A DNA stretch of 64,000 nt from Stigmatella ashevillena. GTDB lineage: Bacteria > Myxococcota > Myxococcia > Myxococcales > Myxococcaceae. The notes beneath the pieces were generated by a model. The model made no database searches. It saw only the letters and a list, made by a program, of their open reading frames with translations, and was not told the origin of the DNA. The position numbers and the translations under genes are program-made. The stretch's first letter is position 1, and every line of letters starts with the position of its first letter. Positions 33,555 to 52,166 of the stretch are shown here, piece by piece. The stretch spans positions 4,396,425 to 4,460,424 of the forward strand of contig NZ_JAQNDM010000002.1 in NCBI RefSeq assembly GCF_028368975.1, in the 5' to 3' direction.

Positions 33555-33585
33555 TGCGATCCGTCAGAGCTGATACCGGCATCCG

Positions 33586-34089
33586 TTAGCCAGCTACGCC
33601 GGAGCGGACACGCAGGGTCTTCTCGAAGGCGGCCTGGAGTTCGGCGAGGACCGAGCGCGCGGGCGCGGGCGCGCCGAGATGCACCGCCCGAAGCTCCTCC
33701 ATGAAGGCCTCCCACAGGCTGGGGCCGCCCTGCGCCAGCAACCGTGCGCGGATCGCCAACTCCTCGGAGACGGGCGTGTGCCGCACGCCCCAGGCCCCCA
33801 TCTGCGCGAGCAACGGCACGAGTTGGATGGCGGGCTCGGTGAGGCTGTAGATGGACTTCTGCCGGTGCCTGGGATCGTCGCGCTTGGACAGCAGACCGGC
33901 CTCGAGCAGGTGCTTGAGCCGGGCCGCGAGGATGTTGGAGGCGATGCCCTCCTCGGACTGGTTCAGCAGCTCGCGGTAATGGCGCCGATTCCCAAACATG
34001 ACGTCACGGATGACGATCAGGCTCCAGCGGTCGCCGAGCACCTCCAGCGCCAGGTTGATCGGACAGCCTGAGCGGCGCATCCCTTCCAT
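33586..34089 (-). CDS. HxlR-family transcriptional regulator
   Basis: A 167-residue winged-helix regulator starting MEGMRRSGCPINLALEVLGDRWSL, the HxlR signature with its redox-capable cysteine (GCPI). VIRDVMFGNRRHYRELLNQSEEGIASNILAARLKHLLEAGLL forms the helix-turn-helix and wing. The C-terminal extension (about 115-167) is longer than usual. It diverges from the glutathione S-transferase gene and likely controls both through the repeated operator between them, as HxlR proteins commonly do with electrophile or redox stress genes. Confidence 0.9.
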   Translation of the reverse strand: MEGMRRSGCPINLALEVLGDRWSLIVIRDVMFGNRRHYRELLNQSEEGIASNILAARLKHLLEAGLLSKRDDPRHRQKSIYSLTEPAIQLVPLLAQMGAWGVRHTPVSEELAIRARLLAQGGPSLWEAFMEELRAVHLGAPAPARSVLAELQAAFEKTLRVRSGVAG

Positions 34090-34104
34090 CGCATGAACTC
34101 CTAG

Positions 34105-34167
34105 AAACTGCTTGCAGCGTAAAAGCGGTTTGTCTACAACGCAACCGGTTTCAAACTGCAAGCGGTT
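34105..34167. promoter_or_regulatory. Repeated inverted repeats in the hxlR-gst divergent region
   Basis: Two inverted repeats share the half-site AAGCGGTT: AAACTGCTT/AAGCGGTTT spanning 34105-34131 and AACCGGTT/AAGCGGTT spanning 34143-34167. The AAGCGGTT words are 37 bp apart. They fill the 103-bp gap between the two divergent starts, where an autoregulating HxlR dimer would bind. Seen directly; binding is inferred. Confidence 0.5.
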
Positions 34168-34192
34168 CGAGCCCCAGCCCGAGGACTCTACG

Positions 34193-34846
34193 ATGCCCCT
34201 GAAGCTCTACGCCCACCCGTTCTCGTCATACTGTCAGAAGGTGTTGATCGCGCTCTACGAGAACGCCCTGCCTTTTGAGTGGCGTGTGGTCGACAACGCC
34301 GGGGCGATGGCCGAACTCGCGGCGCTTTGGCCGCTCAAGCGCTTTCCCGTCCTGGTGGACGAGGGCCGCCCGGTGGTGGAGGCGAGCATCATCATCGAGC
34401 ACCTGCAGCTGTACCACCCGAGCCCCGTGCGGCTGATTCCCGAGGACGCGCGTGAGGCGCTGGAAGTGCGCACCCTGGACCGCTTCTTCGACAACTATGT
34501 GTCGACGCCGCAGCAGAGGCTCGTCTCCAACCAACTGCGGCCCGAGGCGGATCGCGACCCTTACGGCGTGACGGAGGCCCGTACGCAGCTCGAGATGGCC
34601 TATGGCTGGCTTGACGGGTGGATGGCGAACCGCGAGTGGGCCGCTGGCCAAAACTTCAGCCTCGCGGACTGTGCCGCCGCGCCGTTCCTGTTCTACGCGG
34701 ATTGGAGCCACCCCATCGACGCGCGCTTCGCCAACGTCCGGGCCTATCGCCAGAGGCTGCTGGCCCGGCCGTCGTTCGCACGTGCCGTGGACGAGGCACG
34801 TCCGTACCGTCCCCTCTTTCCGCTCGGCGCTCCGGACCGGGACTGA
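34193..34846 (+). CDS. Glutathione S-transferase family protein
   Basis: A 217-residue cytosolic GST. The thioredoxin-like N-terminal domain has LYAHPFSSYCQKVLIALYENALPFEW, with a CxxC-less SSYC motif that offers Ser or Cys for thiol activation, and KRFPVLVDEGRPVVEASIIIEHL with the cis-Pro and the gamma-glutamyl-binding region. The helical C-terminal domain ends with FSLADCAAAPFLFYA, the conserved N-capping box. It is divergent from an HxlR regulator. It likely conjugates or reduces electrophiles; the substrate is unknown. Confidence 0.9.
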   Translation: MPLKLYAHPFSSYCQKVLIALYENALPFEWRVVDNAGAMAELAALWPLKRFPVLVDEGRPVVEASIIIEHLQLYHPSPVRLIPEDAREALEVRTLDRFFDNYVSTPQQRLVSNQLRPEADRDPYGVTEARTQLEMAYGWLDGWMANREWAAGQNFSLADCAAAPFLFYADWSHPIDARFANVRAYRQRLLARPSFARAVDEARPYRPLFPLGAPDRD

Positions 34847-34936
34847 GGGCTGTCCGAGCGGCCGTAGGCATCGGCCAGATGACCTGCCGGGGGCTTGTTC
34901 TCTCCTGGCAGCAGGTTCGATTCCCGCCGCCTCCAT
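34845..34936 (+). pseudogene. Degenerate class II tRNA-like sequence (possible attachment-site scar)
   Basis: The 5' part reads CTGTCCGAGCGGCCGTAGGC, much like the D-arm region of tRNA-Ser/Leu, and the 3' part reads GGTTCGATTCCCGCCGCCTCCA, a T-loop, T-stem half and acceptor 3' strand as in tRNAs or tmRNA. The length (about 92) suits a class II tRNA. Yet the 5' acceptor strand GGAGGCG is absent, the T-stem has a mismatch and no 5+7+5 anticodon arm can be drawn, so it is not a working tRNA. Such 3'-end copies are left when islands integrate in tRNA or tmRNA genes, and an accessory region starts right here. Confidence 0.45.
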
Positions 34937-34944
34937 CCCGAGAA

Positions 34945-34971
34945 GCCCAGCGATCTCAAGGGTCGCTGGGC
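34945..34971 (+). terminator. Hairpin after the tRNA-like sequence
   Basis: GCCCAGCGA pairs with TCGCTGGGC over 9 bp with a 9-base loop. It lies 9 bp after the CCA-like end of the tRNA-like sequence, as tRNA terminators do, but the T tail is weak (CTCTGCT), so it may only be a processing or attenuating hairpin. Confidence 0.55.
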
Positions 34972-35029
34972 CTCTGCTATCCTGGGGTCTTCATGTCATC
35001 TCTGCCCCCTCATTACGACAGGCGGATTC

Positions 35030-36457
35030 ATGAAGCTGACAGCCCTCGGGTTGGGATGTACCACCGCCTTGCTCATGAGTTGTGCGGCGGTCGGCGGGCG
35101 CACCGGATTACCAGCTGAGGCAAACACCTCCTATCGGCAAGAGCTGGGGCCTACGGTCCACAGGTTCTCTGCCAGGGAGTCTTCGCCTCCCGCAGCTTCA
35201 AAACCTGGGCATCAGTTCATCACCCAAGCCCGACAAGCGCTTCTCGGTACTATCAACGATGTGGAGCGCCCCCAGGTCGGCCTCGCTGACTCGCTCCGTC
35301 GACTCACGCATAACAAGAGCCTCAGTGGCCGGGCCAACGGCGTGTTCACCCGCCACATCGACTATGGCTCCAACCAGATGCAATGGATTCATGGCGCTCT
35401 GGGTGGCGTCACCACGCTGGCTGACGCTGCATGGGAAGTGGATGAACCGGACATGGGGCTCGCCCTCCTTCGCCTCACCGGCCCACGGCTCCAAGCAGCC
35501 ATGTCCGGCGCAACCCTGCTCGCCGCGTGGGTCGACTTCCTGAACCTTGCTGACGCCGTGCTCCGGCAGTGCCCCTCTTACGGCACCGAGCGGCTGTACG
35601 CGAACATGAACCGCGCACAGCGGTTGATCGAGCCCTCCATGAGGGCTCTCTCCTCCCTGGAGCCAGCGCAGGTGGGGGAAGCAACCGTCGCGATGCCCGC
35701 GTTGATGGGCCAGCTCACCCGGGAGTTCCACTCCATCCGTGAAGGAGCACACGTAGCCAGCGAGCGCGCCGGTCAGCTCATGGCGGCGGCGCAGGCCGTC
35801 GAGATGATTACCCTGATATCGACGATGAAGATGTCGCTGCCACGGCTTCCTCCAGCTGCTCCCGCCACGCTCAGCGTGGGCCTGGTGATGGGCGCCAACG
35901 GCGTGATGATGGGTTCGCAGGTCGTCGTCACCGCCGAGTGGATCGAATTGATGCGTCGGCTCGTGCAGGCGGGCGTCCTCTCTGCTGCAGCCGTCAGCGC
36001 CATTGTCCGTATCCATGCCGGTCAGGTGATGATGTCGCAAGCGCACCAAGGGTTGCCGCAGGGTGTGCGCGACGCGCTGGGCGACGGCCCCGAGGTTCGC
36101 GGCATGCACGAGACCGGCAAAGCGGGGGCTGGCATGGCTGAGCCACCACGACACCACGTCCTGCCGGATGAACACCGCAAGTGGTTCGAGCAGCGCGGCT
36201 TCACTGGCGCCATGGACATCGACCAGTTCTGCGTCAAGCTGGAGGCGGCGAATCATCAGGCGATTCACGGCGGTGGTAACTGGCGTCTGGGTCGCACATG
36301 GGCCGGAGAATGGAACCGGATGATCATGCGCGTGCTGCGTGGAGCAGAGGCTGCGGTCGGCCGGAGGTTGACGCGAGACGAGATCCTGAACATCGTTGCG
36401 GAGAATATGAAGGAGTACAGAATCCCGATGAACTTCGTCTCCGGGAGAGGGCGATGA
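35030..36457 (+). CDS. SitA-like lipoprotein toxin, DUF2380/TIGR02269-type, with C-terminal nuclease-like domain
   Basis: A 475-residue lipoprotein: MKLTALGLGCTTALLMSC is a type II signal peptide. The long N-terminal part (about 50-350) is mostly helical and Ala rich with LSVGLVMGANGVMMGSQVVV near 285. The last 100 residues form a compact domain with PPRHHVLPDEHRKWFEQRGF and ANHQAIHGGGNWRLGRTWAG, His-rich motifs resembling the HNH-like toxins of polymorphic systems. The architecture recalls the myxobacterial SitA toxins, which are lipoproteins moved between kin by TraAB outer-membrane exchange. The stop overlaps the ATG of the next gene, as expected for toxin and immunity. Toxicity and delivery are inferred. 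Confidence 0.65.
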   Translation: MKLTALGLGCTTALLMSCAAVGGRTGLPAEANTSYRQELGPTVHRFSARESSPPAASKPGHQFITQARQALLGTINDVERPQVGLADSLRRLTHNKSLSGRANGVFTRHIDYGSNQMQWIHGALGGVTTLADAAWEVDEPDMGLALLRLTGPRLQAAMSGATLLAAWVDFLNLADAVLRQCPSYGTERLYANMNRAQRLIEPSMRALSSLEPAQVGEATVAMPALMGQLTREFHSIREGAHVASERAGQLMAAAQAVEMITLISTMKMSLPRLPPAAPATLSVGLVMGANGVMMGSQVVVTAEWIELMRRLVQAGVLSAAAVSAIVRIHAGQVMMSQAHQGLPQGVRDALGDGPEVRGMHETGKAGAGMAEPPRHHVLPDEHRKWFEQRGFTGAMDIDQFCVKLEAANHQAIHGGGNWRLGRTWAGEWNRMIMRVLRGAEAAVGRRLTRDEILNIVAENMKEYRIPMNFVSGRGR

Positions 36458-36924
36458 ACGAAGATCGCTCCTGGCAGGGCAACTGGAAGGTTCGTCTGTA
36501 TGAGCGAGTCCGCGAGCGCGGGTACACTTCGCTCACTGCCTTTGCCGAGGCGCGCCCTACTGTGTCGCTGCTTGCGTTAGCCGAGGAACTGGGCGCGGAT
36601 GACGTCAACGCAGTGCAGGTATTGAGCGGGTTGCTGGCCGAAGCGGAGCAGCGCAAGCAGGTGACGCGCTTCGAGCGAGACCTGCTCGTGCGCATGTTGT
36701 CCCAGAGTCTCCCTAGCGGATGGCCGACCGTCATGGACGACCCAGCTCGTTTTGCCGTCGGCAAAGCGCTCGGTCGCTGGATTGGTTACACCCCCGAAGC
36801 CCATCAGGAGCGCTCCGAGCAGGTCATCGCAGCGCTTCTCGCCACGCCACCGCCGCCCGGCTGGCGCCCACTCGGTCCCGAAGACGAGTTGCTCCGCACG
36901 CTCTTGCCAGATGAGGAAGTCTGA
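36454..36924 (+). CDS. Putative immunity protein of the SitA-like toxin
   Basis: A 156-residue cytosolic, mostly helical protein with no recognised domain: MNEDRSWQGNWKVRLYERV, then VSLLALAEELGADDVNAVQV and FERDLLVRMLSQSLPSGWPT. Some relatives carry doubtful NUDIX labels, but no NUDIX box is present. It begins within the toxin stop codon (ATGA), so the two are made together. Place, size and lack of a signal peptide fit a protein that neutralises a nuclease in the cytoplasm. The role is inferred from arrangement only. Confidence 0.55.
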   Translation: MNEDRSWQGNWKVRLYERVRERGYTSLTAFAEARPTVSLLALAEELGADDVNAVQVLSGLLAEAEQRKQVTRFERDLLVRMLSQSLPSGWPTVMDDPARFAVGKALGRWIGYTPEAHQERSEQVIAALLATPPPPGWRPLGPEDELLRTLLPDEEV

Positions 36925-37132
36925 TGACCCGATAGCGGTAGGCCTCGGATTGTAGCCAGCAAGGCTGTTCCGAGGGGCTCGACGGTAGGAAGTCCTGGGC
37001 GCTGTACGAAGTTCTGACGCACCAGCCCCCGGACCTCATGTGCTGCCGCCTCATGTCATCAACCCACGCGTGCCTCACGAGCTCAGTGGGCTGACCATGC
37101 GACTGTTGTAACGGGTGTCCGTACCTATATCT

Positions 37133-37262
37133 GCCCGGGTTCAGGCCAGGGCCCAGAAGCAAGCCAAGGCCAAGGCACGCCCTCCCGAGAAGCCCTAGTC
37201 TCCGTTGAGAATCGGCCTCGGGCTGGACTTCTACACCGAGAGCTCACACTTGTCGGCCGAAG
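37133..37262 (+). pseudogene. Partial copy of the barrel-protein gene (linker/barrel junction)
   Basis: GCCCGGGTTCAGGCC starts a stretch of about 125 bp that closely matches 32878-33002 of the beta-barrel gene, covering the end of the Ala/Lys linker and the first barrel strand (RIGLGLDFYTESSHLS). At the place where the parent has CAG in PEKPQSP, the copy has TAG, and no start or downstream barrel sequence follows. It is a dead fragment copied by recombination. The surrounding 36925-37132 shows no gene. Confidence 0.75.
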
Positions 37263-37479
37263 AAGAGAAGGCACGCTTCCAACTCGCCTCATGGGACTCG
37301 AAACCTGGTACCCAAGGAAGAGACTACGGACGATGGTGCTCCCGACAGGACAACCCTGGCGAATCCCTCTCACTGCTGGAGGACGGATTCACCTTCATGG
37401 ACGCCTAGGCGCGGCGGAAGATGGCCCTGTCCTTCCCATGGGACGGCGTGTGGGAGAGAGTGCAGGAAGCTGTGTGATA

Positions 37480-37680
37480 GGGAAAAACGGAGCGAGAATT
37501 CTGATTCTGGCGCTGACGGCGGCGTTGGGAGGAAGATCGGCGAGCATGGCCTCGAAGGGCCCGATGCTTCCCGGCTTCGCGAGGGCGGCGCTGGCAGCCG
37601 AAACCAACGCAGGCTTCCTGCTATCTGCCGCGATGGCGATGGAACCGGAACCTTCCACGGGTACCCTGCGGAATAGAAAC
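37480..37680 (+). pseudogene. Remnant of a second SitA/AHH-like lipoprotein toxin
   Basis: The frame reads ILILALTAALGGRSASMASK, then PMLPGFARAALAAETNAGF and LLSAAMAMEPEP. The Ala-rich hydrophobic stretch resembles the helical middle region of myxobacterial lipoprotein toxins such as the intact one at 35.0 kb, but there is no signal peptide, the left border is a copied fragment and the frame ends in unrelated codons. An immunity-like gene survives directly downstream, which supports the reading. The sequence between 37263 and 37479 gives nothing recognisable. Confidence 0.4.
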
Positions 37681-37756
37681 GAGGAGAGCAGAAATGTTTG
37701 CACTGAGCGTGGGGAATCCTGCATGCACCACAGTTCGCGACCCTTCGGACGCGACG

Positions 37757-38188
37757 ATGAATGAGGCTCTTCAAACGATCTGCTCCCTTGATGACCAAGC
37801 TTTCCTTGAGTGGAGTGATTTAAAGTTCCGGCTTGGCTACAAGTATGATCTCAGCATCATGCTCGATGATATCGTGGCGATGGTCCTGGAGGTCGATTCC
37901 TCGGAGGCAGGCACATACGAGCTGGATTGGCCCTCATCCGGGTTCCCTTATCATTGGACGCTGCGGTGGAATGGGAATGAGATGGAGATCGTCGCGCGCG
38001 CGCGGGACGAACCCGGAGCAAAGGATCTGACAGGACGAGAGCAGATCCATATTGACAGGAGAGGATTCCTTCAGGAATGGCAGACGCTTCTCAGGCTGAT
38101 CCTTTCGTGTCTGGAAAACGCGGGGTATGGTTGCGGTTCCCTTGAGGGCGATACGCGCTTGAGGCAAGCGGCAATTCAAGCACGGTGA
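37757..38188 (+). CDS. Orphan immunity-like protein
   Basis: A 143-residue acidic cytosolic protein, not recognised. It begins MNEALQTICSLDDQAFLEWS and has GYKYDLSIMLDDIVAMVLEV and PYHWTLRWNGNEMEIVARARD, an alpha/beta pattern usual in immunity proteins. Its ATG overlaps the TGA that ends the decayed toxin frame (ATGAATGA), matching the coupling seen in the intact cassette; a second start with a good ribosome site (GAGGAG) lies 63 bp upstream. Base composition is less GC rich than the neighbours, which suggests transfer. The 232 bp after it up to the GH31 stop hold no gene. Confidence 0.5.
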   Translation: MNEALQTICSLDDQAFLEWSDLKFRLGYKYDLSIMLDDIVAMVLEVDSSEAGTYELDWPSSGFPYHWTLRWNGNEMEIVARARDEPGAKDLTGREQIHIDRRGFLQEWQTLLRLILSCLENAGYGCGSLEGDTRLRQAAIQAR

Positions 38189-38420
38189 GTTTGCGCGTGC
38201 CGTGAGTGGGTGGTGCTCTCTCTCTGGGGCGGCCGCGTTTCAGGGGGATTGAGGAGGGTGCCTCAGACGCAGGGCTCCTCTCTATGCGTCCGTGGCGACT
38301 CCTCGCCCGCCACCGTCATGCCTGACCGGCGACGGAGCGTGTCGGTGCCTGCCTGCTCAAGGCGCCTGACCAGAGCGGACCGTGCTCCGGCCACGCGCCT
38401 CCTGGCTCACCGGGCAGCGC

Positions 38421-41400
38421 TCACGGGACCTGCTCGAACGACCACTGGCTGCTGGCGTTGACGTCGGGGACGTTGTCCTTGTACTGCGCGTAGCCGAGCT
38501 TGTCCTCGATGTGGACGTAGGCGTTGGGCTGCCAGCGGTTACGGAACCGCTTGTAACCCTGGATGTCTTCCAGGGTCCATTGGCCGCTGGCGTAGAAATC
38601 AGGGATGCGTCCGTACTGCGCCCAGCCCTTCAGCCCCTCGAGGTGCAACACATCGCCGGTCCAGCGGTTGACGATCCGCGTATATCCGCCGTCCGTGATC
38701 ATGTACCAGTGGCTGCTCCAGTTGCCGACGGGCGCGGCGCCGTACTGAACCTTTCCGTCCCGGTCCAGGTTCTCGATGTGCAGGTAGTCGCCGGTCCAGC
38801 GGTTCTTGAGGCGGTAGTAGGTGGGCGAGACCGGCGCCGGACTCGAACTCGCGACCGCCAGCGAGAGGGCGTCGAGGTTCACGTTCCCCGAGTCGCTCGC
38901 GTCGTACTGGTAGCTGATGATGTTGTCGCCGGCGGCGAGGTTGAGCGTCTCCGCCCGCTCCGCCCAGGTATCCCAGTTCGCCAGGGTGGCGAGCGAGGTC
39001 TGCACGGCCTTGCTGCCGTTGACGTAGACGCTCAGCGTCTTCGCGCTCCCCGTCGCATTGGCGTACCGCAGCGAGACGGCGTAGCTCCCGGCCGTCGGCA
39101 CGCGGACATGGAACCGGGTGGCGACGCCCTGTTTCAGGTACCCGTCCACGAACCCGGAGCCGGAGAAGTTGGCGTGGTCCTTGTTGATCGAGCCGCCCCC
39201 CTGGAGGATGGCCTCCTCGGCCTCGTACACGGTCCGGTCCGGAGCCGAGGTGCCGGTGGCGACGATGCTCCGGGCGGAGCCAACGGACACCTTGACGTAG
39301 GTGACGTCGCCGTAGACGTCGGTGCCGGTCGCCCAGCCCTCACCCGGGGCGTTCTCGAGCGCGGTCTTGCCGGTGTAGCGTGTGGCGGCCTGGCCGTTCA
39401 CGGTGACCGAAGCGGCCGCCTTCCCGTGGATCTTGGCGATGTAGTACTGGAGCGACGGAGGCGTGTAGTTCCCGGTCTTGGCGCCGATGTCGAAGCGGAA
39501 ACCGCTTGCCCCGGTGTCCTGGGCGGTCATGGCCTGCTTGAAGTAGGCGCTCGCCTCGTACTGGAACGTCTCCCCGTCATCGTCGTAGTAAGTGAACCGG
39601 CTCTGGGCCGTGTCGGGGAAGACCTCCAGGTAGACCTTCCGGATGGCCCGCTCGCCGATCCAGTTCTGGCTCTCCTGCATGGGGATGATGGCGCCCTTGC
39701 GGATGAACAGGGGCAGGTCTTCCCACGAACTGGTGTTCAGGGAGTAGCGGATCCACTGCGGTCCCACGTAGGCCGTGCCGCGGGTGAAGTCGTACCAGGT
39801 GCCGGACGGGAGGTAGAGGGTCTTCGTGCTCTGGCCCTCCTCGACGACTGGGGACGCCAGCAGGGAGTTGCCGAACATCCATGAATCGAAGGTGTTGCGG
39901 ATGTTGGTGTCGCCCAAGAACTCGTAGAAGAGCGGCCACACGAGGCCGAGGCCGGTCTCGTAGGCGGTCCGCTCGTACGCGTAGATGTAGGGGAAGAGCC
40001 GGTAGCGCAGGTACAGGGCGTTCTTGGCGGCGGCCTCGGCGATGGGGCCATACACCCACGGCTGGCGCTGCTGGTTGAGGTAGCCGTGCACCCGGTGCAC
40101 CGGCACCATGGCGGAGAACTGCATGTAGCGCGCGTAGTTCTCATTTGTGGGCGTCCCGTTGTGGGCGCCGGTGTCCATGCCCCACTTCACGGCGCCGGCG
40201 TTGACCGAGGCGAGCAGCCGCTCGCGCTGCTCGGCCATGGTCTTCCAGCCGATGTACTTCCCCGCGCTGTCGAAGTTCCAGGTGTCCCCGGACCAAAGCG
40301 CGTAACCGTAGCGCTGGGAGCCCAGAAACTGGTTGCGGTTGATGGACCAGACGCGCTTGCCGCTGTAGGCGCGCTGCCACTCGTAGGCGCCCCGCTGCAT
40401 GTTCAGGAACTGGAAGTTGTCATCCCAGGGGCCCAGGTTGTCGGCCTCGTCGTTCCACCACGCCACGATGCCGGCGTCGTACGAGTCCTTGAAGTGGCTC
40501 CAGAACCAGTTGCGACAGTCCGTGAGGGCGAAGTTCACGTCCTTGCACTGGCGGCCGGAGAAGTAGTCGACGTAGTCATCGCCCTGTTGCTTGAAGAAGC
40601 ACCCGTGGTCGAAGGCCCACTGCGCCGCGGCCGTCGTCCCACCGCTGGAGTTCTTCAGGAGGATGCGAGGCTTGGTGATGCCGCCCAGTTTGATGCCCTG
40701 CGCGGCCATGGTGGCCGCGAAGCCACCGGAGGCGCCGTCCGGGAACTTGGCGACCTGGCTGTAGTTGCCGGGCCCGTTGACGCTGTTCCAGCGCCACTCG
40801 CCGTAGTTGTCCTCGCCCCAGGCCTTCCAGTCGAAGTCGAAGATGAACGAGTCGATGGGGATGGCCTTGCTCCGATAGGTGTTGATGATGTTGGTGACTT
40901 CGGCCTTGTCCGCTCCCCACTCGGTGTTGATGAAGCCCATGGCCCACTTGGGGAACATGGGGGGCCTGCCGCTGATCTCGGTCACGGCCTGCATGAAGGC
41001 CTTGGGCTCGCCGACGATGAAGTAGAGGTCGACGTCCTTCTTGGACGTGTTGCTGAACTCGAGGCGGCTCGAGTCGATGAGGAAGTCGCCCGACGCCGAG
41101 TCGAACAAGAGGCCGTACTTCAGGGTGAAGGCGAACGGCGCGCCTGCGTGTCCCTGCTCGCTGGCCGTCACGTGGCCGCCGGAGTCGCGCCGCAGGCCCG
41201 CGTCCGAGTTGGCCAGGACGTGATAGCCGCCGATGCCGTAGAAGGGCTCGCCGGCGGCGTGGTTGAAATTCACGCCGTTGCCGTAGAAGCCCTCGGCGGC
41301 CTGCTCACTGATCAGCACGTTTCCGGCGGTGTCGGAGATGGAGACCCGGCACGGGGTCCGCGAGATCTTCACCACCATCTTGCTCGTGGTGAGGGTGATC

Positions 41401-42212
41401 GGATCGGAGCCCGTGTTCACGGAGACGCCGGTCCCAGTGGCCCAGGTCTTGGCCGGATCCACGACCAGCGTCTTGGGGCTGGAAGCGCCGCCCGGCAGGA
41501 AGTCGATCCAGGCGATCTCCGGCTTCACCATCCGGACCTTGAGCTGGTCTCCGCTGCTCATGGAGATGGTGACGGAGTCCGCACCGGACGTGACGCCGGT
41601 CACGTTCCTCGCGCCGGACGCGAGCGAGTTCGGCGTCCAGAGCTGCGCGTTGGTGCCGTTGCAGGTGAAGAGCTGGACGTCGGTGACCGTGTCCCTCGGG
41701 GCGACGGCCCCCGCGACGTCCAGACACTTGTTGCTCAACGGGCTGACGAACCGGACCTTGCCGTTGCCTCCGTCTTCGATCCGGAACTTCTGGGCGTTGG
41801 TGCCGTTACAGGGGAAGAGCTGGATGTTGGTCCGGTCGGCGGTCCCGGCATTGTCGATGTCCACGCACTTGTTTGTCCCGGTGTTGACGAGGCGCACGAG
41901 GCCGTCGCCCTGGTTCTCCACCCAGAACTTCTGGGGCTCGCCGCCGGTACAGTTCCAGACCTGGATGTTGGTCCTGGGATCGGGGCTGCCCTTGTCCACG
42001 TCCAGACACATGCTGGAGCCGACGTTCGCACCGAAGGTGTAGGGGCCCGCGCCGCCGGAGAGGGCGAGGCTTGATCGGGTTTGCGCGGTGGTGGCCGGGC
42101 CGCCTTCCTGAACCGGGAGGAACTCCGCGTCATCCCGTGCCCCTCCGCATCCAACCCCTGCGATGAGCGCAAGCAACCGGGTGAGCCGTTGTCCTGGTTT
42201 TGGTTTCCTCAT
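38421..42212 (-). CDS. GH31 family alpha-glycosidase lipoprotein with ricin-type and CBM35-like modules
   Basis: A 1263-residue modular enzyme starting at MRKPKPGQRL, preceded by GAAGGAGGGG at 6 bp. Lipobox AGVGC anchors it. Residues 55-190 are a ricin-type beta-trefoil with three SMCLDV/KCVDID/KCLDVA units. The GH31 part (about 205-985) has the nucleophile region GIVAWWNDEADNLG (near 582) and the acid/base region YALWSGDTWNFD (near 640). A CBM35-like domain follows (VYEAEEAILQGGGSINKDH, about 994), then three NRWTGDYLHIE-type repeats (about 1132-1263) forming another sugar-binding trefoil. Likely substrates are alpha-glucans or xyloglucan-type alpha-xylosides. It lies downstream of a GH43 gene on the same strand. 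Confidence 0.9.
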   Translation of the reverse strand: MRKPKPGQRLTRLLALIAGVGCGGARDDAEFLPVQEGGPATTAQTRSSLALSGGAGPYTFGANVGSSMCLDVDKGSPDPRTNIQVWNCTGGEPQKFWVENQGDGLVRLVNTGTNKCVDIDNAGTADRTNIQLFPCNGTNAQKFRIEDGGNGKVRFVSPLSNKCLDVAGAVAPRDTVTDVQLFTCNGTNAQLWTPNSLASGARNVTGVTSGADSVTISMSSGDQLKVRMVKPEIAWIDFLPGGASSPKTLVVDPAKTWATGTGVSVNTGSDPITLTTSKMVVKISRTPCRVSISDTAGNVLISEQAAEGFYGNGVNFNHAAGEPFYGIGGYHVLANSDAGLRRDSGGHVTASEQGHAGAPFAFTLKYGLLFDSASGDFLIDSSRLEFSNTSKKDVDLYFIVGEPKAFMQAVTEISGRPPMFPKWAMGFINTEWGADKAEVTNIINTYRSKAIPIDSFIFDFDWKAWGEDNYGEWRWNSVNGPGNYSQVAKFPDGASGGFAATMAAQGIKLGGITKPRILLKNSSGGTTAAAQWAFDHGCFFKQQGDDYVDYFSGRQCKDVNFALTDCRNWFWSHFKDSYDAGIVAWWNDEADNLGPWDDNFQFLNMQRGAYEWQRAYSGKRVWSINRNQFLGSQRYGYALWSGDTWNFDSAGKYIGWKTMAEQRERLLASVNAGAVKWGMDTGAHNGTPTNENYARYMQFSAMVPVHRVHGYLNQQRQPWVYGPIAEAAAKNALYLRYRLFPYIYAYERTAYETGLGLVWPLFYEFLGDTNIRNTFDSWMFGNSLLASPVVEEGQSTKTLYLPSGTWYDFTRGTAYVGPQWIRYSLNTSSWEDLPLFIRKGAIIPMQESQNWIGERAIRKVYLEVFPDTAQSRFTYYDDDGETFQYEASAYFKQAMTAQDTGASGFRFDIGAKTGNYTPPSLQYYIAKIHGKAAASVTVNGQAATRYTGKTALENAPGEGWATGTDVYGDVTYVKVSVGSARSIVATGTSAPDRTVYEAEEAILQGGGSINKDHANFSGSGFVDGYLKQGVATRFHVRVPTAGSYAVSLRYANATGSAKTLSVYVNGSKAVQTSLATLANWDTWAERAETLNLAAGDNIISYQYDASDSGNVNLDALSLAVASSSPAPVSPTYYRLKNRWTGDYLHIENLDRDGKVQYGAAPVGNWSSHWYMITDGGYTRIVNRWTGDVLHLEGLKGWAQYGRIPDFYASGQWTLEDIQGYKRFRNRWQPNAYVHIEDKLGYAQYKDNVPDVNASSQWSFEQVP

Positions 42213-42340
42213 CTCGTACCCCTCCTTCATTCTTTCCAATTGGCGTTGCGCTCGACATTGGCGCCTGTGCCCGCTGCGGGGGCAGGCGCCGGGGCCGAGC
42301 CCCCGCGATCTCAAGACCGGGAGGCTCCGCGCGGGAAGGC

Positions 42341-43771
42341 TCAGGGCATCGGCCGCGAACTCACCGACGGCGCGGCTGGCATGGACGGCCAACCGTTGCT
42401 CCAGACAATGGCATCCACGAGCATCACGCGCGCGGTGTGGGCGCTGTTCCATGCGTGGTACACCATCACCGAGGTCCCCGAGGGGGAGGTGATGACCGAG
42501 CCGTGCCCAGGGCCTTCCCAGCCCGGCACGGTCTTGAGGATGGGAGCGCTGGCCTTGGTGTACGGGCCCAGGGGGCTCGTCGCGCGGGCCACGCCGATAG
42601 CGTAGGTGCCGTTGTAATAGGCATTGCCACTGTAGAAGAGGTAGTAGTAGCCATCCTTCGCCACGACCCACGGCGCCTCGACCACCCCACCCTCCCAGGA
42701 ACGATCATTGGTGATGAGCGTCTGCCGCGCGCCGACCAGTGACAGGCCATCCGCCGAGAGCGCCTGACCGTAAATGGGCGTCTTCTGCCCCACCGCGTTG
42801 CCGTCCGCCTTCCACACCAGGTACTTCGTGCCCGCGGTGTCGGTGAAGAACGTGGCGTCGATCATCCCCATCGTCGCGTCCTGAATCAGGGGGCGGCCCA
42901 AATCGGTGAAGGGCCCGAGCGGACTGGCGGCGGTGGCGGCGCCAATCGACAGGACCCCATTGGTGGCGCGCGCCGTGTAGTAGGCGATGTAGCGCGAGCC
43001 CACGCGGTGGATCTCCGGAGCCCAGAAGTCCGAGGAGGTCCAGGCGGGCTTCTTGCCCGATGGGAAGATGAAGCCCGCCTGCGTCCAGGTCACCAGGTCC
43101 GAAGACGTCCGGATGGGGAACCCATTGGCGGCGCCGCCCGACGTGCACACCGCGATGTACTTGCCCCCATCGAAGATGACGCCTGGGTCGGCGCAGTCCG
43201 TGGGGAACACCGGGTTCCGGTAGAGGCCTCCACACCCCGTGTACCTGAACGTCATGGCGCAGCCATTGGCACCGGTGAAGAACGGCTTCCAGCCATTGGA
43301 GAGCGTCGCGTAGGAGTTGGATCCCTCATTGACACACGAGCGGTCCCAGAACACGCGCCCGCCCACGTCGTCATAAGTCCCCGGGTTGGCGTGGATCCAC
43401 TTCGGACCATAGGTGACGCGCGTGGAGCACGCAGGGGTGCCCGCGCAGTCCGAGTCGAACGACATCACGCACGCGTTGTTGCCGGTGAAGTACGGCTTCC
43501 ACCCGTTGGAGAGCACCGCGTAGGAATTGGATCCCTCGTTGACGCAGGTACCATCCCAGGTCACCTGGCCGTCCGCGGTGTCGAATTGATCCGGGTGCCC
43601 AGGATGGATCCACGCATCGCCGTACACGATGCGGGTGGTACATGCGAGCGGCGCCTGGGCGGTGGCCAGTGCCGCCTGCGCCTCGCCCCCTGCCTCATCG
43701 CCACATCCCACGCCAGAGACTGCGGCGGCACTCAAGACGGTCAGGGCCGCAGCCCACCGATAGGTCTTCAT
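42341..43771 (-). CDS. GH43 family glycosidase lipoprotein with tandem Cys-rich N-terminal repeats
   Basis: A 476-residue lipoprotein (signal MKTYRWAAALTVLSAAAV, lipobox VGC), start supported by AGGAGG 10 bp upstream. Two copies of a 65-residue module, each with TRxxYGxxWI, CVNEGSNSYAxLSNGWKPxF and closing CxMxF, occupy about 30-165. The five-blade GH43 propeller follows: general base in DCADPGVIFDGG, pKa modulator in MGMIDATFF and acid in VVEAPWVVAKDGYYYLFYS. Expected activity is arabinanase or xylosidase on plant or fungal glycans. It precedes GH31 by 128 bp, so a shared transcript is likely. Confidence 0.9.
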   Translation of the reverse strand: MKTYRWAAALTVLSAAAVSGVGCGDEAGGEAQAALATAQAPLACTTRIVYGDAWIHPGHPDQFDTADGQVTWDGTCVNEGSNSYAVLSNGWKPYFTGNNACVMSFDSDCAGTPACSTRVTYGPKWIHANPGTYDDVGGRVFWDRSCVNEGSNSYATLSNGWKPFFTGANGCAMTFRYTGCGGLYRNPVFPTDCADPGVIFDGGKYIAVCTSGGAANGFPIRTSSDLVTWTQAGFIFPSGKKPAWTSSDFWAPEIHRVGSRYIAYYTARATNGVLSIGAATAASPLGPFTDLGRPLIQDATMGMIDATFFTDTAGTKYLVWKADGNAVGQKTPIYGQALSADGLSLVGARQTLITNDRSWEGGVVEAPWVVAKDGYYYLFYSGNAYYNGTYAIGVARATSPLGPYTKASAPILKTVPGWEGPGHGSVITSPSGTSVMVYHAWNSAHTARVMLVDAIVWSNGWPSMPAAPSVSSRPMP

Positions 43772-44090
43772 GAAGAGACAACCTCCTGGAGTCATGCTCC
43801 AAGAGCACTTTGCCTTAGAACAGAAAATCATGGAAATCCAAAAATACCAGCCATTCGACTGAGGGGCGCTGAGCGCACAGCCGCTGTCGCCATGGCGCAC
43901 CCTCCGGCTGACGCCTCCCTCCGGGTCGGCGAGCCCTGGCACAGGTGTGCCCCGAGCTGGCTGCAAGGCGCTGCAATGACGGTATACCGGCTCGCCGCAC
44001 GCCGCAGGGGCACCCGGCTCCAGCCCTGCTTCTCCCCTGGGCCCAGCGCCTCCCGCCGCTACAGCGCTTCTGAACTTCCTATGCGTCGCG

Positions 44091-44110
44091 CTAGCTCGGA
44101 TCCGAGCTAG
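44091..44110. promoter_or_regulatory. Perfect 20-bp palindrome upstream of the AHL synthase gene
   Basis: CTAGCTCGGATCCGAGCTAG is fully self-complementary. Its size equals that of lux-type boxes and it has the CT-N-AG outer bases typical of them, although the inner bases differ from the classic lux box. It is 86 bp upstream of the start codon. As no gene ends here, a terminator role is unlikely; an operator is the better guess. Confidence 0.5.
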
Positions 44111-44116
44111 TCTTTA

Positions 44117-44129
44117 TGCGGACGATCCG
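44117..44129. promoter_or_regulatory. Short inverted repeat next to the palindrome
   Basis: GCGGA CGA TCCGC forms a 5-bp stem with a 3-base centre, 7 bp after the 20-bp palindrome. It could be part of the same operator or a leader hairpin of the AHL synthase transcript. It is too short to judge alone. Confidence 0.3.
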
Positions 44130-44195
44130 CAGTGTACCCTCACTTCAAGTACATGTGGGCCCGGCCGGGTCCTCTGGAGGGAGGCAGTTGAAGCC

Positions 44196-44852
44196 ATGAG
44201 CCGCGTGGTCATTGGTCGTACGAGTGATGCTCACATGACGCCCGAGCTGATCGACGGGATGTTCCGTTTGAGGCACCGAGTCTTTCGTGAGCTGTTGGGC
44301 TGGGATGTGGAGAGCCACGATGGAAGGGAGCGCGATCGCTTCGACGCACTGGATCCAGTCTACATCGTGGCCCATGACGAGGATCGTCAAGAGGTGGTGG
44401 GGTGTTGGCGCCTCATCCCGACGACCGGTCCATACATGCTGAGGGATGTCTTTCCACAGCTCCTGCGGGGTGGGTCGGCCCCACGCGATCCGCATATCTG
44501 GGAGGTAAGCCGCTTCGCGACGGCACTCGGGGCGCGGGGTGGAAGCCAAGCAGACTTTGGACCCGTAGCGCTGCAGATGATCTGGAAGGCGGTGGATTTC
44601 TGCCTCCAGAATGACGTCCAGAGCTTTATTACCGCTACCAGCGTGGACTTGGAGCGCCGGTGGCATGCGGTGGGAGTCCCCACGAAGCGCCTGGGAGATG
44701 GACAGGTGGAGCTACTCGGGAACGTTCCCTCGGTGGCCTGTTGGGTGGATGTCGGAGAGGAGATGCTCCGCTTCCTCGAGATCAAGTCCGGTGTGCGGCC
44801 GGAGCGCATCAAGGGTCACTCCCCGGGCGGCGGCTCCAGCGGGAGCGGGTAG
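44196..44852 (+). CDS. Acyl-homoserine-lactone synthase (LuxI family)
   Basis: A 218-residue autoinducer synthase preceded by GGAGGGAGG. All ten residues conserved in LuxI proteins seem present: R26, F30 and W36 in RLRHRVFRELLGW; E45, D47 and D50 in GRERDRFDALD; R72 in GCWRLIPTTGPYML; F86; and E103 and R106 in WEVSRFAT. The second half has the acyl-chain-binding pattern ATSVDLERRWHAVGVPTKRLG. It should join an acyl chain with S-adenosylmethionine to make an AHL. No LuxR-type receptor (autoinducer-binding plus HTH) is in the window. AHL synthases are rare in myxobacteria, so transfer is likely. The C-terminal Gly/Ser tail is short. Confidence 0.92.
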   Translation: MSRVVIGRTSDAHMTPELIDGMFRLRHRVFRELLGWDVESHDGRERDRFDALDPVYIVAHDEDRQEVVGCWRLIPTTGPYMLRDVFPQLLRGGSAPRDPHIWEVSRFATALGARGGSQADFGPVALQMIWKAVDFCLQNDVQSFITATSVDLERRWHAVGVPTKRLGDGQVELLGNVPSVACWVDVGEEMLRFLEIKSGVRPERIKGHSPGGGSSGSG

Positions 44853-44972
44853 GTTGCGAGGACATCTTTTCATGCTCCGCACGGCCTCGCCTCCGGCTTG
44901 GCGCACAGCCCGGGGGACTTGGCGTACCCGTCGTTCTTATGGCCTGTCGACGCGTGGTGTAGTCTCCATCCC

Positions 44973-45347
44973 ATGGCATCGATGATACACCTTGACCACG
45001 TCGCTCTGCCGGCGCGCGAGCCTGAACGCGCCGCGCGCTTCCTGGCGCGGGTGCTGGGGACCCAGGTTGCTGCCGACGACTCCGAGAGCGCGTTCTTCAA
45101 CGTCTCGCTTGGCGCCGATACTACGCTTGTTTACGTCCCCGTGGGCGAGGTTGCGAGTCACCACCTCGCGCTGCGCGTCGATGGCGCAACGTTCGACGCT
45201 GCGGTCGCAATGTTGCACGCGACCAGCACCGTGTTCGGCAACGACCCCGAGACACCCGACAACGGACAGATTACCGACCCGCGTGGGGGGCGAGGACGCA
45301 TCTACTTCAGCGACCCTGAGGGGCACTTTTTTGAGTTGATTGTGTGA
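44973..45347 (+). CDS. VOC-family (glyoxalase/bleomycin-resistance/dioxygenase-like) protein
   Basis: A 124-residue protein with one pair of beta-alpha-beta-beta-beta units. Metal-ligand positions are IHLDHVALPAREPERAARFL (His), SHHLALRVDG (His) and SDPEGHFFELIV (Glu). The closing motif RIYFSDPEGHFFEL is standard. Active enzymes are often dimers; the substrate cannot be told, and glutathione-linked detoxification or lyase activity on a lactone-like compound are both possible. It follows the AHL synthase by 120 bp on the same strand; co-transcription is uncertain. The 191 bp after it contain no gene. Confidence 0.85.
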   Translation: MASMIHLDHVALPAREPERAARFLARVLGTQVAADDSESAFFNVSLGADTTLVYVPVGEVASHHLALRVDGATFDAAVAMLHATSTVFGNDPETPDNGQITDPRGGRGRIYFSDPEGHFFELIV

Positions 45348-45538
45348 GCATCAAAGGGAGTTGCCCTCGCGGGCTCCGAGGCAGACCCCAGAGCAGGGGT
45401 CACCGCAGGCCCCCATCCTTCCTAGACTTTTCGTCGACTACTGCACGGCGTACTCCAAGGGTTGGGGAGACTTCACGGTGGTGCGGGCAGGGTGAAGGCG
45501 AAAGACGACCTTTCGTCGGCCTGCGTCAGGCTTGACGC

Positions 45539-46588
45539 TCAGCGCATGTAGCGCTCCGCACTAAGCCGGTTGCCAGGCATGAAGAGCACTTGGCCCGTGT
45601 AGAGCAGGACCGCAGGCCTCAAATAAGAGGAAGGGGAGGAGGAGGGCTCCAACCACCAAGCATTCTGGGAAGGCGAGTACAGCGCCGCCTGTCCACTGTT
45701 GTTCGTGACCAGCACTTCGTTGGTGGTGAGCAGCGTCGCGCTGGAAGGCTGCGTGAAGGGAAGTGCGGGTCCCGCGTACCAGCGCTGATTGTACGGGTCA
45801 TAGATGTCCACGGCGGTCGCTGTCTCGGAGGGGCCTTCTTGATTATTGCTCAAGACCATCACGTGGCCCGAACCGAGCCGGATCGCCTGATGGCGGCCCC
45901 GGGGATGTGACAGCGTGCCCGCCGCCGTCCAGGTTCCCGTGGCGGGATCGTACAGCTCGGCCGATGCGATGGGCTGAAAGTCCGACGTGTAACCCCCGGT
46001 GACCAGGACCTTGCCCGAATAGAGCACCGTCGCGCTATGGAAGCTCCGGGCCGTCAGCATCTGTCCTGGCAGAAGGGTCCACGTCTCCGTGACGGGATCG
46101 AATTCCTCCACGCTCGACAGGGCGGTGGCCCGCGGGATGCTCGGGTAGTGATAGCCCCCCGTCACGAGGGCTCGACCCGAGGGAAGCAACGTCATGGCCG
46201 GATCCATGCGGTAAACCTGGAACCCTTGCGTCAGGTAGGTCCACTGATCCGTCGTCGGCGAATAGGTACTCAGTCTCACCTCGCCACCCATCCGGCCTGG
46301 GGCCCTTGAGATGGCCAGCACCTTGCCGGAGGGGAACTCGGTCAGCATGGGGTTGCTGCACATCCCGGGAGAACACATGGGGCTCGTGATTCGCCATGTG
46401 TCTGTGTAGGGATTGTAGCGCTGCACGAATCCCGCACTGATGGTCATGGCCTCCCCCGTGCCGCGGAGGCGCATGATCGCCTCGGCGGCATAGGACATGG
46501 GCGCTTGGGACGTGGGGGACCACGTCCCGGCCTGAACGTTGAGGGAAAGCAATCCTGCCAGTGCCAGAGCTGACTTGAAGCGCTTCAT
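45539..46588 (-). CDS. Secreted kelch-repeat beta-propeller protein
   Basis: A 349-residue exported protein from MKRFKSALALAGLLSLNVQA, a good type I signal peptide. About six kelch units are visible, for example FHSATVLYSGKVLVTGGYTS and HQAIRLGSGHVMVLSNNQE, with the GG and aromatic positions of the family and the usual PxTxTWT strands. This is the galactose-oxidase central-domain propeller, but no copper ligands were found, so it is probably a binding rather than an enzymatic protein. Such proteins are plentiful in myxobacterial secretomes. Confidence 0.82.
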   Translation of the reverse strand: MKRFKSALALAGLLSLNVQAGTWSPTSQAPMSYAAEAIMRLRGTGEAMTISAGFVQRYNPYTDTWRITSPMCSPGMCSNPMLTEFPSGKVLAISRAPGRMGGEVRLSTYSPTTDQWTYLTQGFQVYRMDPAMTLLPSGRALVTGGYHYPSIPRATALSSVEEFDPVTETWTLLPGQMLTARSFHSATVLYSGKVLVTGGYTSDFQPIASAELYDPATGTWTAAGTLSHPRGRHQAIRLGSGHVMVLSNNQEGPSETATAVDIYDPYNQRWYAGPALPFTQPSSATLLTTNEVLVTNNSGQAALYSPSQNAWWLEPSSSPSSYLRPAVLLYTGQVLFMPGNRLSAERYMR

Positions 46589-49595: not shown

Positions 49596-50270
49596 TCACC
49601 CCGGCAAGCGCCAGTCGATGGGCTCCCGGCCCCGCGCGGTGAGCGCCTCGTTGATGCGGCTGAAGGGACGGCTGCCGAAGAAGCCCTGCGAGGCCGATAG
49701 CGGCGAGGGGTGCGCCGACTCGAGGATGGCATGCCGCTGCGTGTCGATGAGCTTCTTCTTCTTGCGCGCGTAGCCTCCCCACAGGACGAACACCCCTGGC
49801 TCCGGCCTCGCGCTCACCGCCTGGATGACCGCGTCCGTGAACTCCTCCCAGCCGTGTGCCGCATGGCTGTTGGGAGTGCCCGCCCGCACCGTCAACACCG
49901 CGTTCAGGAGCAGCACCCCCTGCTCCGCCCAGGACACCAGCGAGCCCCCCATGGCCGGGGGCAACCCCAGGTCGCTCTGAAGCTCCTTGAAGATGTTTAC
50001 CAAGGAGGGCGGCAACCTCACCCCCGGACGGACCGAGAAGGCCAGGCCGTGCGCCTGCCCCGGCCCATGGTAGGGGTCCTGCCCCAGAATCAGCACCTTC
50101 ACCCGCTCGGGCGGCGTCAACTGGAACGCCGAGAACAACTCCTCCTCCGGCGGGTAGATGGTGGCCTCCCCCCGCTCTTGCTCCACGAAGCGCTCCAGCG
50201 CCTCGGCCGAGGGCGCCTCCAGCGCCCCCTTGAGTTCCTGCTTCCACCCCTCCGGCAACCGTTCCCACAT
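49596..50270 (-). CDS. ung: Uracil-DNA glycosylase, family 1
   Basis: A 224-residue DNA-repair enzyme that removes uracil from DNA. The water-activating loop GQDPYHGPGQAHGLAFS has catalytic Asp65, and the DNA-intercalation loop HPSPLSASQGFFGSRPFS has the catalytic histidine. LLLNAVLTVRAGTPNSH carries the conserved Asn pocket. Length is normal for the family (220-230). It is divergent from the CpaF gene with 138 bp between them. Confidence 0.97.
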   Translation of the reverse strand: MWERLPEGWKQELKGALEAPSAEALERFVEQERGEATIYPPEEELFSAFQLTPPERVKVLILGQDPYHGPGQAHGLAFSVRPGVRLPPSLVNIFKELQSDLGLPPAMGGSLVSWAEQGVLLLNAVLTVRAGTPNSHAAHGWEEFTDAVIQAVSARPEPGVFVLWGGYARKKKKLIDTQRHAILESAHPSPLSASQGFFGSRPFSRINEALTARGREPIDWRLPG

Positions 50271-50408
50271 GAATCCTCCCTCCTGCGTCCTATACCATCA
50301 TACCCACGTACTGGGTTGGATTGGAAAATGGTCGCCTGCCCTCCCACCTGGGAGCCTCCTACCAGATGTTGGGTTCATGGCACGGCTCGCGCTAGCCTGC
50401 GTCTTGCC

Positions 50409-52166
50409 ATGTCCATGTACAATGAGTCCCTCCGCGCCTTTCTCAAGCCGGTCCTCCCGTACCTGGATGATCCCTCTGTCTCGGAGATCATGATCAACGG
50501 CCCGGCCGACGTCTGGATCGAGCGCAAGGGCAAGCTCTCCAAGACCGACGCCGCCTTCTCGGAAGAGGGGCTCATCGGCGCCGCGCGCAACATGGCCCAG
50601 TACGTCGGTCGGCTCTTGAACGACGAGCGCCCCCGGCTCGATGCGCGCCTGCCCGACGGCAGCCGCATCCACGTCGTCATCCCGCCCATCGCCCGGCGCG
50701 GCACCACCATCTCCATCCGCAAGTTCTTCCGGGAAAAGCTGAACATCGACGCCCTCATCAAGTACCAGTCGCTGACGACGCAGATGGCGCGGCTCATCGA
50801 CGCGGGCATCCACACCAAGCTCAACATGCTGGTGTCCGGCGGCACCGGCTCGGGCAAGACCACCCTGCTCAACATCGTCTCCGGCCTCATCCCGGACGAT
50901 GAGCGCATCCTCACCATCGAGGACTCGGCGGAGCTTCAGCTCAACCAGTCCCACCTGGTCTCCTTCGAGAGCCGCCCCCCGGACAAGTTCGGCAAGGGCG
51001 GCGTGGACATGGGAGACCTCTTGCACTCGGCGCTGCGTCTGCGCCCCGACCGCATCGTGGTGGGCGAGGTGCGCGGCGGCGAGGCTTTCTACCTGATGCA
51101 GGCGATGAACACCGGCCACGGCGGCTCGCTGGCCACCTGCCACGCCAACACCCCCACTGACACGCTGCGGCGCATCGAGTCGCTGTGCCTCATGTCCGCC
51201 GTGGAATTGCCCATGGTGGCCGTGCGCGCCCAGGTGGCCAGCGCCATCAACTTCATCATCTGCTGCGAGCGCCTCCACGACGGCAGCCGCAAGACGATTG
51301 CCCTCTCCGAGGTGCTCCCCCTCAACGAGAAGGGCGACTACCGCACCCAGGACATCTTCGTCTTCACCCCCGTCACCAAGGACGAGGACGGCCACGTGCT
51401 GGGCTACCACGCCCCCACCGGCATCATCCCCACCTTCGTCTCCAAGGCCCGGGCCTACGGCTTCAATGACCTGGACGAGTCCTTCTTCGACCCGGCCACC
51501 TATGGCGTGCCGCCGCCGCCCAGCTTCCAGGTCGGCTCCTCCTATGAGGTGCGCTGGGCCCCCTCGCTCAAGCACCGGGAGCGGGGCTACCCCGACCCCG
51601 ACGAGTACAAGCGGCAATGGGCCGACTTCGAGCGCAAGCTCCAGGAGGATGCCCGTACCGGACACGAGGGGAAGGCCTCTTCTGCCGTGCAGGTGCAGGT
51701 GCCCGCGTCCCGGCCCGCGGTCGCCGCGCGGCCTCCGCCCCCTTCCGCGCAGACCCGTGCCCCCTCGCGCCCTCCGCCGCCGCCCGTCTCGGACGACGAC
51801 AAGACGCCCCCACCTACCCGCAACCCCTTCGTCCAGGAGGCCGCGGACGACGATTTGAGCGCCCCTTCCGACATTCCCACCCACGCCGGCCTGCCCCCCC
51901 AGGATGAGCCCAAGGTGGAGGTCTCCGAGGACCTGCTCGCCGAGGCCACCCTGCCGCCTCCCCGCCGGCCCGCGCCGGGGGCCACCTCCCCCAAACCGGG
52001 CGCCAGCGCCATCCCGGTCCTGCGGTCCGCCGCCTCCTCGCCGCCCCGGCGCCCCGTGCCGGGGCGCTCCATTGCCGAGGACGACGGCGAGGACGACAAG
52101 ACCGAGGGACGGAACACCGGGGAGAAAACGCAGATTCGCTCCACCCCGGAGCGGCCCCGCCGCTGA
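50409..52166 (+). CDS. CpaF/TadA-type secretion ATPase with long Pro-rich C-terminal extension
   Basis: A 585-residue cytoplasmic ATPase starting MSMYNESLRAFLKPVLPYLDDPSVSEIMINGP. The N-terminal domain is typical of CpaF; the ATPase core has Walker A GGTGSGKTTLL, Asp box TIEDSAELQLNQSHLVSFE, Walker B LRPDRIVVGEVRGGEAFYL and a His box GGSLATCHANTPTD. After about residue 350 relatives end soon, yet this one adds some 190 residues of Pro/Ala/Asp-rich, presumably disordered sequence with RPPPPPVSDDDKTPPPTRNP. No tad or flp genes adjoin, so its machine is elsewhere. It may drive Tad pilus or related secretion. Confidence 0.88.
   Translation: MSMYNESLRAFLKPVLPYLDDPSVSEIMINGPADVWIERKGKLSKTDAAFSEEGLIGAARNMAQYVGRLLNDERPRLDARLPDGSRIHVVIPPIARRGTTISIRKFFREKLNIDALIKYQSLTTQMARLIDAGIHTKLNMLVSGGTGSGKTTLLNIVSGLIPDDERILTIEDSAELQLNQSHLVSFESRPPDKFGKGGVDMGDLLHSALRLRPDRIVVGEVRGGEAFYLMQAMNTGHGGSLATCHANTPTDTLRRIESLCLMSAVELPMVAVRAQVASAINFIICCERLHDGSRKTIALSEVLPLNEKGDYRTQDIFVFTPVTKDEDGHVLGYHAPTGIIPTFVSKARAYGFNDLDESFFDPATYGVPPPPSFQVGSSYEVRWAPSLKHRERGYPDPDEYKRQWADFERKLQEDARTGHEGKASSAVQVQVPASRPAVAARPPPPSAQTRAPSRPPPPPVSDDDKTPPPTRNPFVQEAADDDLSAPSDIPTHAGLPPQDEPKVEVSEDLLAEATLPPPRRPAPGATSPKPGASAIPVLRSAASSPPRRPVPGRSIAEDDGEDDKTEGRNTGEKTQIRSTPERPRR

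Follow-up and report, generated by a model that had tools for sequence, protein, structure and literature searches.

The DNA analysed here (the window) was a stretch of 64 kb from the genome of isolate NCWAL01, a Stigmatella ashevillena strain obtained from walnut roots according to the species description (PMC10435759). The genome comprises 10,951,030 bp in two contigs of 10,009,571 and 941,459 bp, and the gene under study, a predicted acyl-homoserine lactone (AHL) synthase gene of the luxI type, lies on the larger one. The features of the locus are the following:

33555–45536, no strand assigned: variable locus of about 12 kb, occupied in genome G037 by about 5.1 kb of other DNA (blastn of L128)
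43855–45520, no strand assigned: stretch of about 1.7 kb with luxI and the VOC gene, for which six congeners gave short matches outside both genes only
44091–44110, no strand assigned: perfect 20-bp gapless palindrome CTAGCTCGGATCCGAGCTAG, −105 to −86 of luxI, a candidate operator
44196–44852, plus strand: predicted luxI-type AHL synthase gene of the LasI/TofI clade, 218 aa (PF00765, phmmer, AlphaFold2, tree)
44973–45347, plus strand: small glyoxalase/VOC-fold gene, 120 bp 3' of luxI (Pfam Glyoxalase_6, 3.6e-7)

The luxI reading frame starts with ATG, runs for 218 residues without internal stops, and is directly preceded by a GGAGGGAGG-like ribosome-binding stretch (read by eye). In Pfam, residues 18–189 matched PF00765 (Autoind_synth) at 4.6e-31 and 108.2 bits (cut-off 24), the GNAT match being weaker, and this was the only PF00765 match in the whole genome. 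Among solved sequences, phmmer placed LasI (1ro5) closest (1.5e-36, about 36% identity), followed by TofI, BjaI, RpaI, MesI and, weakly, EsaI. The NCBIfam TraI models matched far below their cut-offs (124.1 bits against 250 for the equivalog NF052393), and the protein was therefore assigned to the LuxI family and not to TraI. All ten residues regarded as conserved in LuxI proteins (R26, F30, W36, E45, D47, D50, R72, F86, E103, and R106) were present; eight of them were invariant in an alignment of 22 rows including the query, while F30 and E45 were conserved in at least 90% of the rows. The structure predicted with AlphaFold2 (mean pLDDT 89.9) had the GNAT-like alpha-beta-alpha fold of AHL synthases. 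Its top PDB match in Foldseek was LasI (1.2e-18), and VIA-align 2 superposed it on LasI 1ro5 with a Z score of 26.6 and an rmsd of 2.1 over 191 residues; TofI was the second structural match (Z 22.7), and FeeM reached a Z score of 15.4. Judged from its sequence, the frame at 44196–44852 is an intact LuxI-family gene with a complete active site, and the predicted fold of its product is LasI-like. The original prediction, which described a complete LuxI-type synthase with all ten residues in place, is borne out on both points.

PF00765 matched five of the 96 genomes of the family, two of them over the cut-off (S. ashevillena and G002), and six of the 195 genomes in the phylum set, where G166 was the third to pass. 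The matches in G017, G019, G022, and G166 each scored higher with FeeM than with Autoind_synth and were not counted as LuxI (the FeeM score of G022 lay under the FeeM cut-off), which left two LuxI-bearing genomes among the 195. Within the genus, luxI was found in one of seven genomes, the six congeners being without it. Vitiosangium, the source of VitI, could not be made out among the 96 genomes of the family. Genome G002, which we take to be Archangium gephyra, carries a LuxI gene encoding 210 aa when read from an internal ATG; from the genome and this length, which is the one published for AgpI (PMC7862692), we take it to be AgpI. The gene taken as AgpI deviates from the list of conserved residues at two of ten positions (F30 and E45, in the 22-row alignment). 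Since AgpI nevertheless produces AHLs in E. coli, the ten positions do not strictly decide whether an enzyme is active.

A phylogenetic analysis separated the two myxobacterial genes. The luxI product and the gene taken as AgpI were 29% identical over 169 residues. In a tree of 90 rows, built without VitI, the former sat in a clade of 35 rows (support 99/96) that included LasI, TofI, and the LuxI proteins of Acinetobacter and Paraburkholderia, and that consisted mostly of beta- and gammaproteobacteria with one Acidobacteriota MAG; the latter paired with BjaI (100/94) and was split off at 98/92. A topology with a clade common to both, which orthology with AgpI or VitI would entail, was 58.76 log units worse and was rejected (p-AU 3.9e-5) in an AU test that was run after the tree had been seen and with the long-branched G166 row removed. 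The closest relative among the matches listed was the LuxI of a Gallionellaceae MAG (L027, JAUSKS010000019.1), at 44% identity. Because the query branch was long (0.99, and the tool warns on long branches) and the nearest relative was only 44% identical, the donor was left unplaced. On this evidence, the luxI gene of S. ashevillena appears to be an acquisition separate from AgpI and derived from the LasI/TofI lineage, and predatory myxobacteria seem to have picked up AHL synthase genes more than once. The comparison with proteobacterial LuxI proteins that the original prediction proposed thus puts the gene within the LasI/TofI clade and apart from AgpI. Its interpretation held for the LuxI identity, the complete active site, and the missing LuxR (see below), and it overlooked the separate acquisition and the species-specific stretch in which the gene lies. 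Both roles that it put forward, a signal meant for other species or for an orphan receptor, would fit our data.

The alignment also allowed a prediction of the substrate. The hydroxyl group of T140 in EsaI and of T142 in LasI has been reported to bind the 3-oxo group, and a tryptophan pair, W142/W143 in BjaI, to mark CoA-dependent enzymes (PMC8188788). When read by eye, T146 of the luxI product aligned with LasI T142, and D151-L152 aligned with the BjaI pair. We predict that the enzyme uses acyl-ACP, because the CoA-type tryptophan pair is absent, and that it prefers 3-oxo or 3-hydroxy chains, because T146 aligns with LasI T142. The latter prediction rests on one residue, since the position is occupied by Ser in L027, the nearest relative, and by Met in L034; the gene taken as AgpI has Gly there. 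Among the proteins encoded by the S. ashevillena genome, a single one belongs to the penicillin-amidase family (PF01804), as do PvdQ-type AHL acylases, and this protein might destroy the AHL product. Such acylases have been described as conserved in Myxococcaceae (PMC7694542).

A search for a receptor was negative at both scales. In the whole 10.95-Mb genome, a profile search for the autoinducer-binding domain PF03472, which found its E. coli control, gave no matches at E ≤ 0.001; at E ≤ 10 three partial matches under the threshold appeared, the best with 15 bits against a cut-off of 23. In the 64-kb window, Pfam and a LuxR profile likewise detected no autoinducer-binding regulator. The only significant match of the LuxR profile there was to the HTH end of 26365–26994, whose product combines an N-terminal receiver domain with GerE (Pfam). 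This regulator follows a long Reg_prop/Y_Y_Y histidine kinase, with which it forms a two-component pair at 22317–26994. The original prediction had recognised the host as a myxobacterium and the only LuxR-type HTH protein of the window as one bearing a receiver domain, and had noted no autoinducer-binding regulator beside it; all three points agree with our results, and the genome scan that it suggested extends the absence of LuxR, at the sensitivity of a profile search, to the whole genome. A LuxR remnant beside luxI was also considered and rejected: tblastn of 80 LuxR ORFs against 43700–45700 produced 40 matches at E ≤ 1, and these weak matches (E 0.066–0.97 for those listed) were taken as chance. 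Among relatives of the gene in named genomes (the best 80 of 556 candidates), 73 had within 4 kb of luxI an ORF matching the LuxR profile and reaching its N-terminal part, the profile having been built from four sequences, three of them from loci outside the 80. The other seven were L034, L057, L077, L081, L087, L088, and L103, some of which were cut by contig ends. At the thresholds of these searches, S. ashevillena has neither an adjacent nor an unlinked LuxR, as a canonical LuxI/LuxR system would, and its gene corresponds to a solo luxI, a synthase without a LuxR-type receptor in the genome.

In the family, PF03472 matched 15 of the 96 genomes, ten of them over the cut-off and three strongly. 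The strong matches, L006 in G057 (1.1e-32), L007 in G058 (5.2e-32), and L008 in G046 (6.1e-20), occur in genomes with no LuxI match, which is the converse situation of a solo receptor that lacks a synthase. In G002, a 793-aa frame (locus L011) gave a partial match of 24.3 bits, just above the cut-off, over positions 60–131 of 149. This is possibly a false match of the PAS/GAF type, and it contrasts with the published analysis of A. gephyra, which reported a genome devoid of LuxR-type receptors (PMC7862692).

Comparison of the locus with congeneric genomes showed how luxI is embedded. With G037, which we take to be S. aurantiaca DW4/3-1, collinearity of the window extends to 33554 and is regained at 45537; in the right flank the two sequences are 94% identical. 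In the DNA search of the genus, congener matches flanking the luxI stretch stopped at 43850–43854 and resumed at 45521–45537; between these points only short matches of up to about 200 bases were obtained, situated 5' of luxI, in the gap between luxI and the VOC gene, and 3' of the VOC gene, with none inside either gene in the six congeneric genomes. The GC3 of luxI (0.740) and of the VOC gene (0.760) was lower than the median of 35 other window ORFs (0.857), only one of which lay below luxI. These 35, with mechanically assigned starts, are the 37 other ORFs less 10924–11412, 34895–36457, and 49710–52166 (GC3 0.75, 0.75, and 0.85), plus the GH43 gene. Because of the species-specific stretch, its collinear flank, the lack of congener matches for luxI, and the low GC3, horizontal acquisition of luxI appears to be the best reading. 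Contamination or misassembly as the source was ruled out by the position on a 10.0-Mb contig with a right flank 94% identical to and collinear with G037.

A phage or plasmid origin was considered and rejected. With the single protein as query, no relative was found in viral contigs; five phage records and 903 plasmid records were matched, all at below 60% identity, and no close donor was found. The three plasmid neighbourhoods examined contain conjugation genes. One record named 'Acinetobacter phage MD-2021a' (L026, CAKLQH020000009.1) seems to be a bacterial contig under a wrong label: it carries a lasI/sdiA pair next to genes of acyl-CoA metabolism, and its LuxI groups in the tree, with very short branches, with those of Acinetobacter genomes. 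No direct repeat of at least 7 bases was found between 43821–43900 and 45481–45560.

Adjoining luxI at 38421–43768 are a GH31 gene, whose product also has ricin-type lectin and CBM35 domains, and a GH43 gene. Both have matches of 94–95% at separate places in the congeners, those of GH43 ending at 43850–43854; since the two genes are side by side here and apart there, the variable locus is one that collects genes. The VOC protein had no match at E ≤ 0.001 in three of the six congeners (G036, G037, and G038), and its matches in other family genomes, including G039–G041, were 28–43% identical. Co-transfer of the VOC gene with luxI is possible. The gene taken as agpI is also followed by a VOC-fold gene on the same strand, encoding an HPPD-like protein (L002, 2251–3378); a VOC-fold gene after both synthases may be a coincidence.

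Upstream of luxI, the palindrome at 44091–44110 is the longest perfect gapless one in the window. It was reached in two of 20,000 mononucleotide shuffles of the 150 bp 5' of luxI, a figure that is not a clean test, as the palindrome was first noticed by reading the sequence. Among 30 control ORFs from the window, not one had an upstream dyad of at least 9 of 10; the 30 were a further selection from the 35, and for one of them the upstream DNA amounts to only about 20 bases. One such palindrome in 64 kb is unsurprising, because whole-window shuffles contain on average 0.7 palindromes with an arm of at least 9, and it is the position that matters. In the genome, it is a single site within three mismatches. 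CTAG occurs 17 times in the window against about 194 expected from base composition, and two of the 17 bound the palindrome. The best upstream dyad had CT and AG at the lux-box spacing (CT-N12-AG) in seven of 20 relatives (L028, L029, L030, L038, L048, L049, and L054; −69 to −113, read by eye), and in two of the 20 the dyad was reached by at most 2 of 200 shuffles. The S. ashevillena palindrome resembles these lux-box-like dyads in length and place and differs from them in register: its outer CT/AG are 16 apart and its two CT-N12-AG matches lie 2 bp off centre, for which reason it was not accepted as a lux box of the classical type. It could represent a lux box in derived form, some other operator, or a weak terminator stem. 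No sigma-70-like promoter was found in 43800–45700 by a scan that is weak in GC-rich DNA (0.2 expected by chance).

Taken together, we read the gene, with a probability of roughly 0.6, as one for a functional AHL synthase that was acquired horizontally, is without a receptor of its own ("solo"), and acts on neighbours through its product. The enzyme would take acyl chains from acyl-ACP, preferably 3-oxo (or 3-hydroxy) ones, join them to S-adenosylmethionine, and release an acyl-homoserine lactone, which would leave the cell and act on neighbouring AHL-sensing Proteobacteria, either prey or companions. Transcription of luxI may be governed by a putative factor that binds the upstream palindrome. 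The outward role is the simplest one because no receptor was detectable in the S. ashevillena genome, and such a role on neighbours has been proposed for AgpI (PMC7862692).

The gene could instead be a passenger that came recently with foreign DNA, has not yet been lost, and is unexpressed or unused. Its presence in one of seven genomes of the genus, its atypical codon composition, the missing LuxR, and the lack of a sigma-70-like promoter in the weak scan are all consistent with this, and a solo synthase can be silent, since AHL was undetectable in axenic cultures of A. gephyra (PMC7862692). We nevertheless consider it rather unlikely: the frame is intact, the active site complete, and the fold confidently predicted, an apparent ribosome-binding stretch and an unusual palindrome precede the gene, and two lineages of receptorless synthases in one family argue against pure accident. 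The palindrome bears also on the idea that S. ashevillena senses its own AHL through a type of receptor that lacks the LuxR autoinducer-binding domain, as an operator of this form would suit a dimeric regulator, and M. xanthus, which has no obvious LuxR, is reported to respond to AHLs (PMC7862692). Such self-signalling is quite improbable in our view, given that no candidate sensor was found, that a synthase limited to one of seven congeners would be odd for a built-in circuit, and that a palindrome occurring once in the genome within three mismatches makes no regulon visible. Finally, the product might be another N-acyl compound and not an AHL: FeeM and comparable LuxI-like GNATs produce N-acyl amino acids, and proteins resembling FeeM occur in Myxococcota. 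The ten core residues, the 108 bits for Autoind_synth with no FeeM match at E ≤ 0.001, and the much closer structural match to LasI than to FeeM make this highly implausible.

A broader reading may be put forward tentatively, which we regard as unlikely in its full extent: that predatory myxobacteria repeatedly and independently took AHL synthases from different proteobacterial lineages, without the receptor, as an outward tool, and that in Stigmatella a LasI-type enzyme under its own palindromic operator forges a 3-oxo-type signal that manipulates AHL-sensing prey or companions. A single lineage of solo LuxI in myxobacteria might have arisen by accident; with another one, unrelated and likewise receptorless, the matter becomes a comparative question, namely, of what use a quorum signal is to a predator that cannot hear it, with two enzymes and two predicted signal classes in one lifestyle.

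Of the known systems, LasI of P. aeruginosa (1ro5) is the closest solved relative by both sequence and fold and likewise has Thr at the 3-oxo position; however, LasI is paired with LasR, whereas the S. ashevillena enzyme, sharing about 36% identity with it, has no detected receptor. The L027 LuxI differs in the same respect, having a LuxR-type ORF (profile positions 10–240) 202 bp away. The solo AHL synthases AgpI of Archangium gephyra and VitI of Vitiosangium (PMC7862692), whose occurrence in strains of this kind the original prediction had correctly mentioned, are alike in being LuxI-family synthases of predatory myxobacteria with a GC content below that of their surroundings and no LuxR neighbour. 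The gene taken as AgpI differs in its clade, in its 29% identity, and in the Gly at the position of T146, and AgpI and VitI make C8- and C9-AHL in E. coli (PMC7862692), in contrast to the 3-oxo type predicted here. The LuxI proteins of Archangium WIMLSP1/2 are also myxobacterial, with horizontal transfer proposed, but are over 90% like AgpI and over 70% like Microvirga LuxI (PMC12919014); they belong to the other lineage because of their likeness to AgpI. In Actinomycetota, luxI solos similarly have an AHL synthase apart from luxR outside Pseudomonadota, in a different phylum (PMC13136126).

The synthases of A. gephyra and Vitiosangium were called the only known myxobacterial ones in a 2026 preprint (PMC12919014), while an earlier survey mentions an AI-I synthase for Corallococcus exiguus and, for Corallococcus, homoserine lactones that were predicted (PMC7694542). 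No AHL synthase is named for Stigmatella in the titles, abstract openings, and selected passages of the literature considered, and the words 'homoserine', 'hserlactone', and 'autoinducer' are absent from the main text of the species description (PMC10435759). Solo LuxI proteins in myxobacteria are therefore already known, and what is new is the gene of S. ashevillena and its apparently independent, LasI-type origin.
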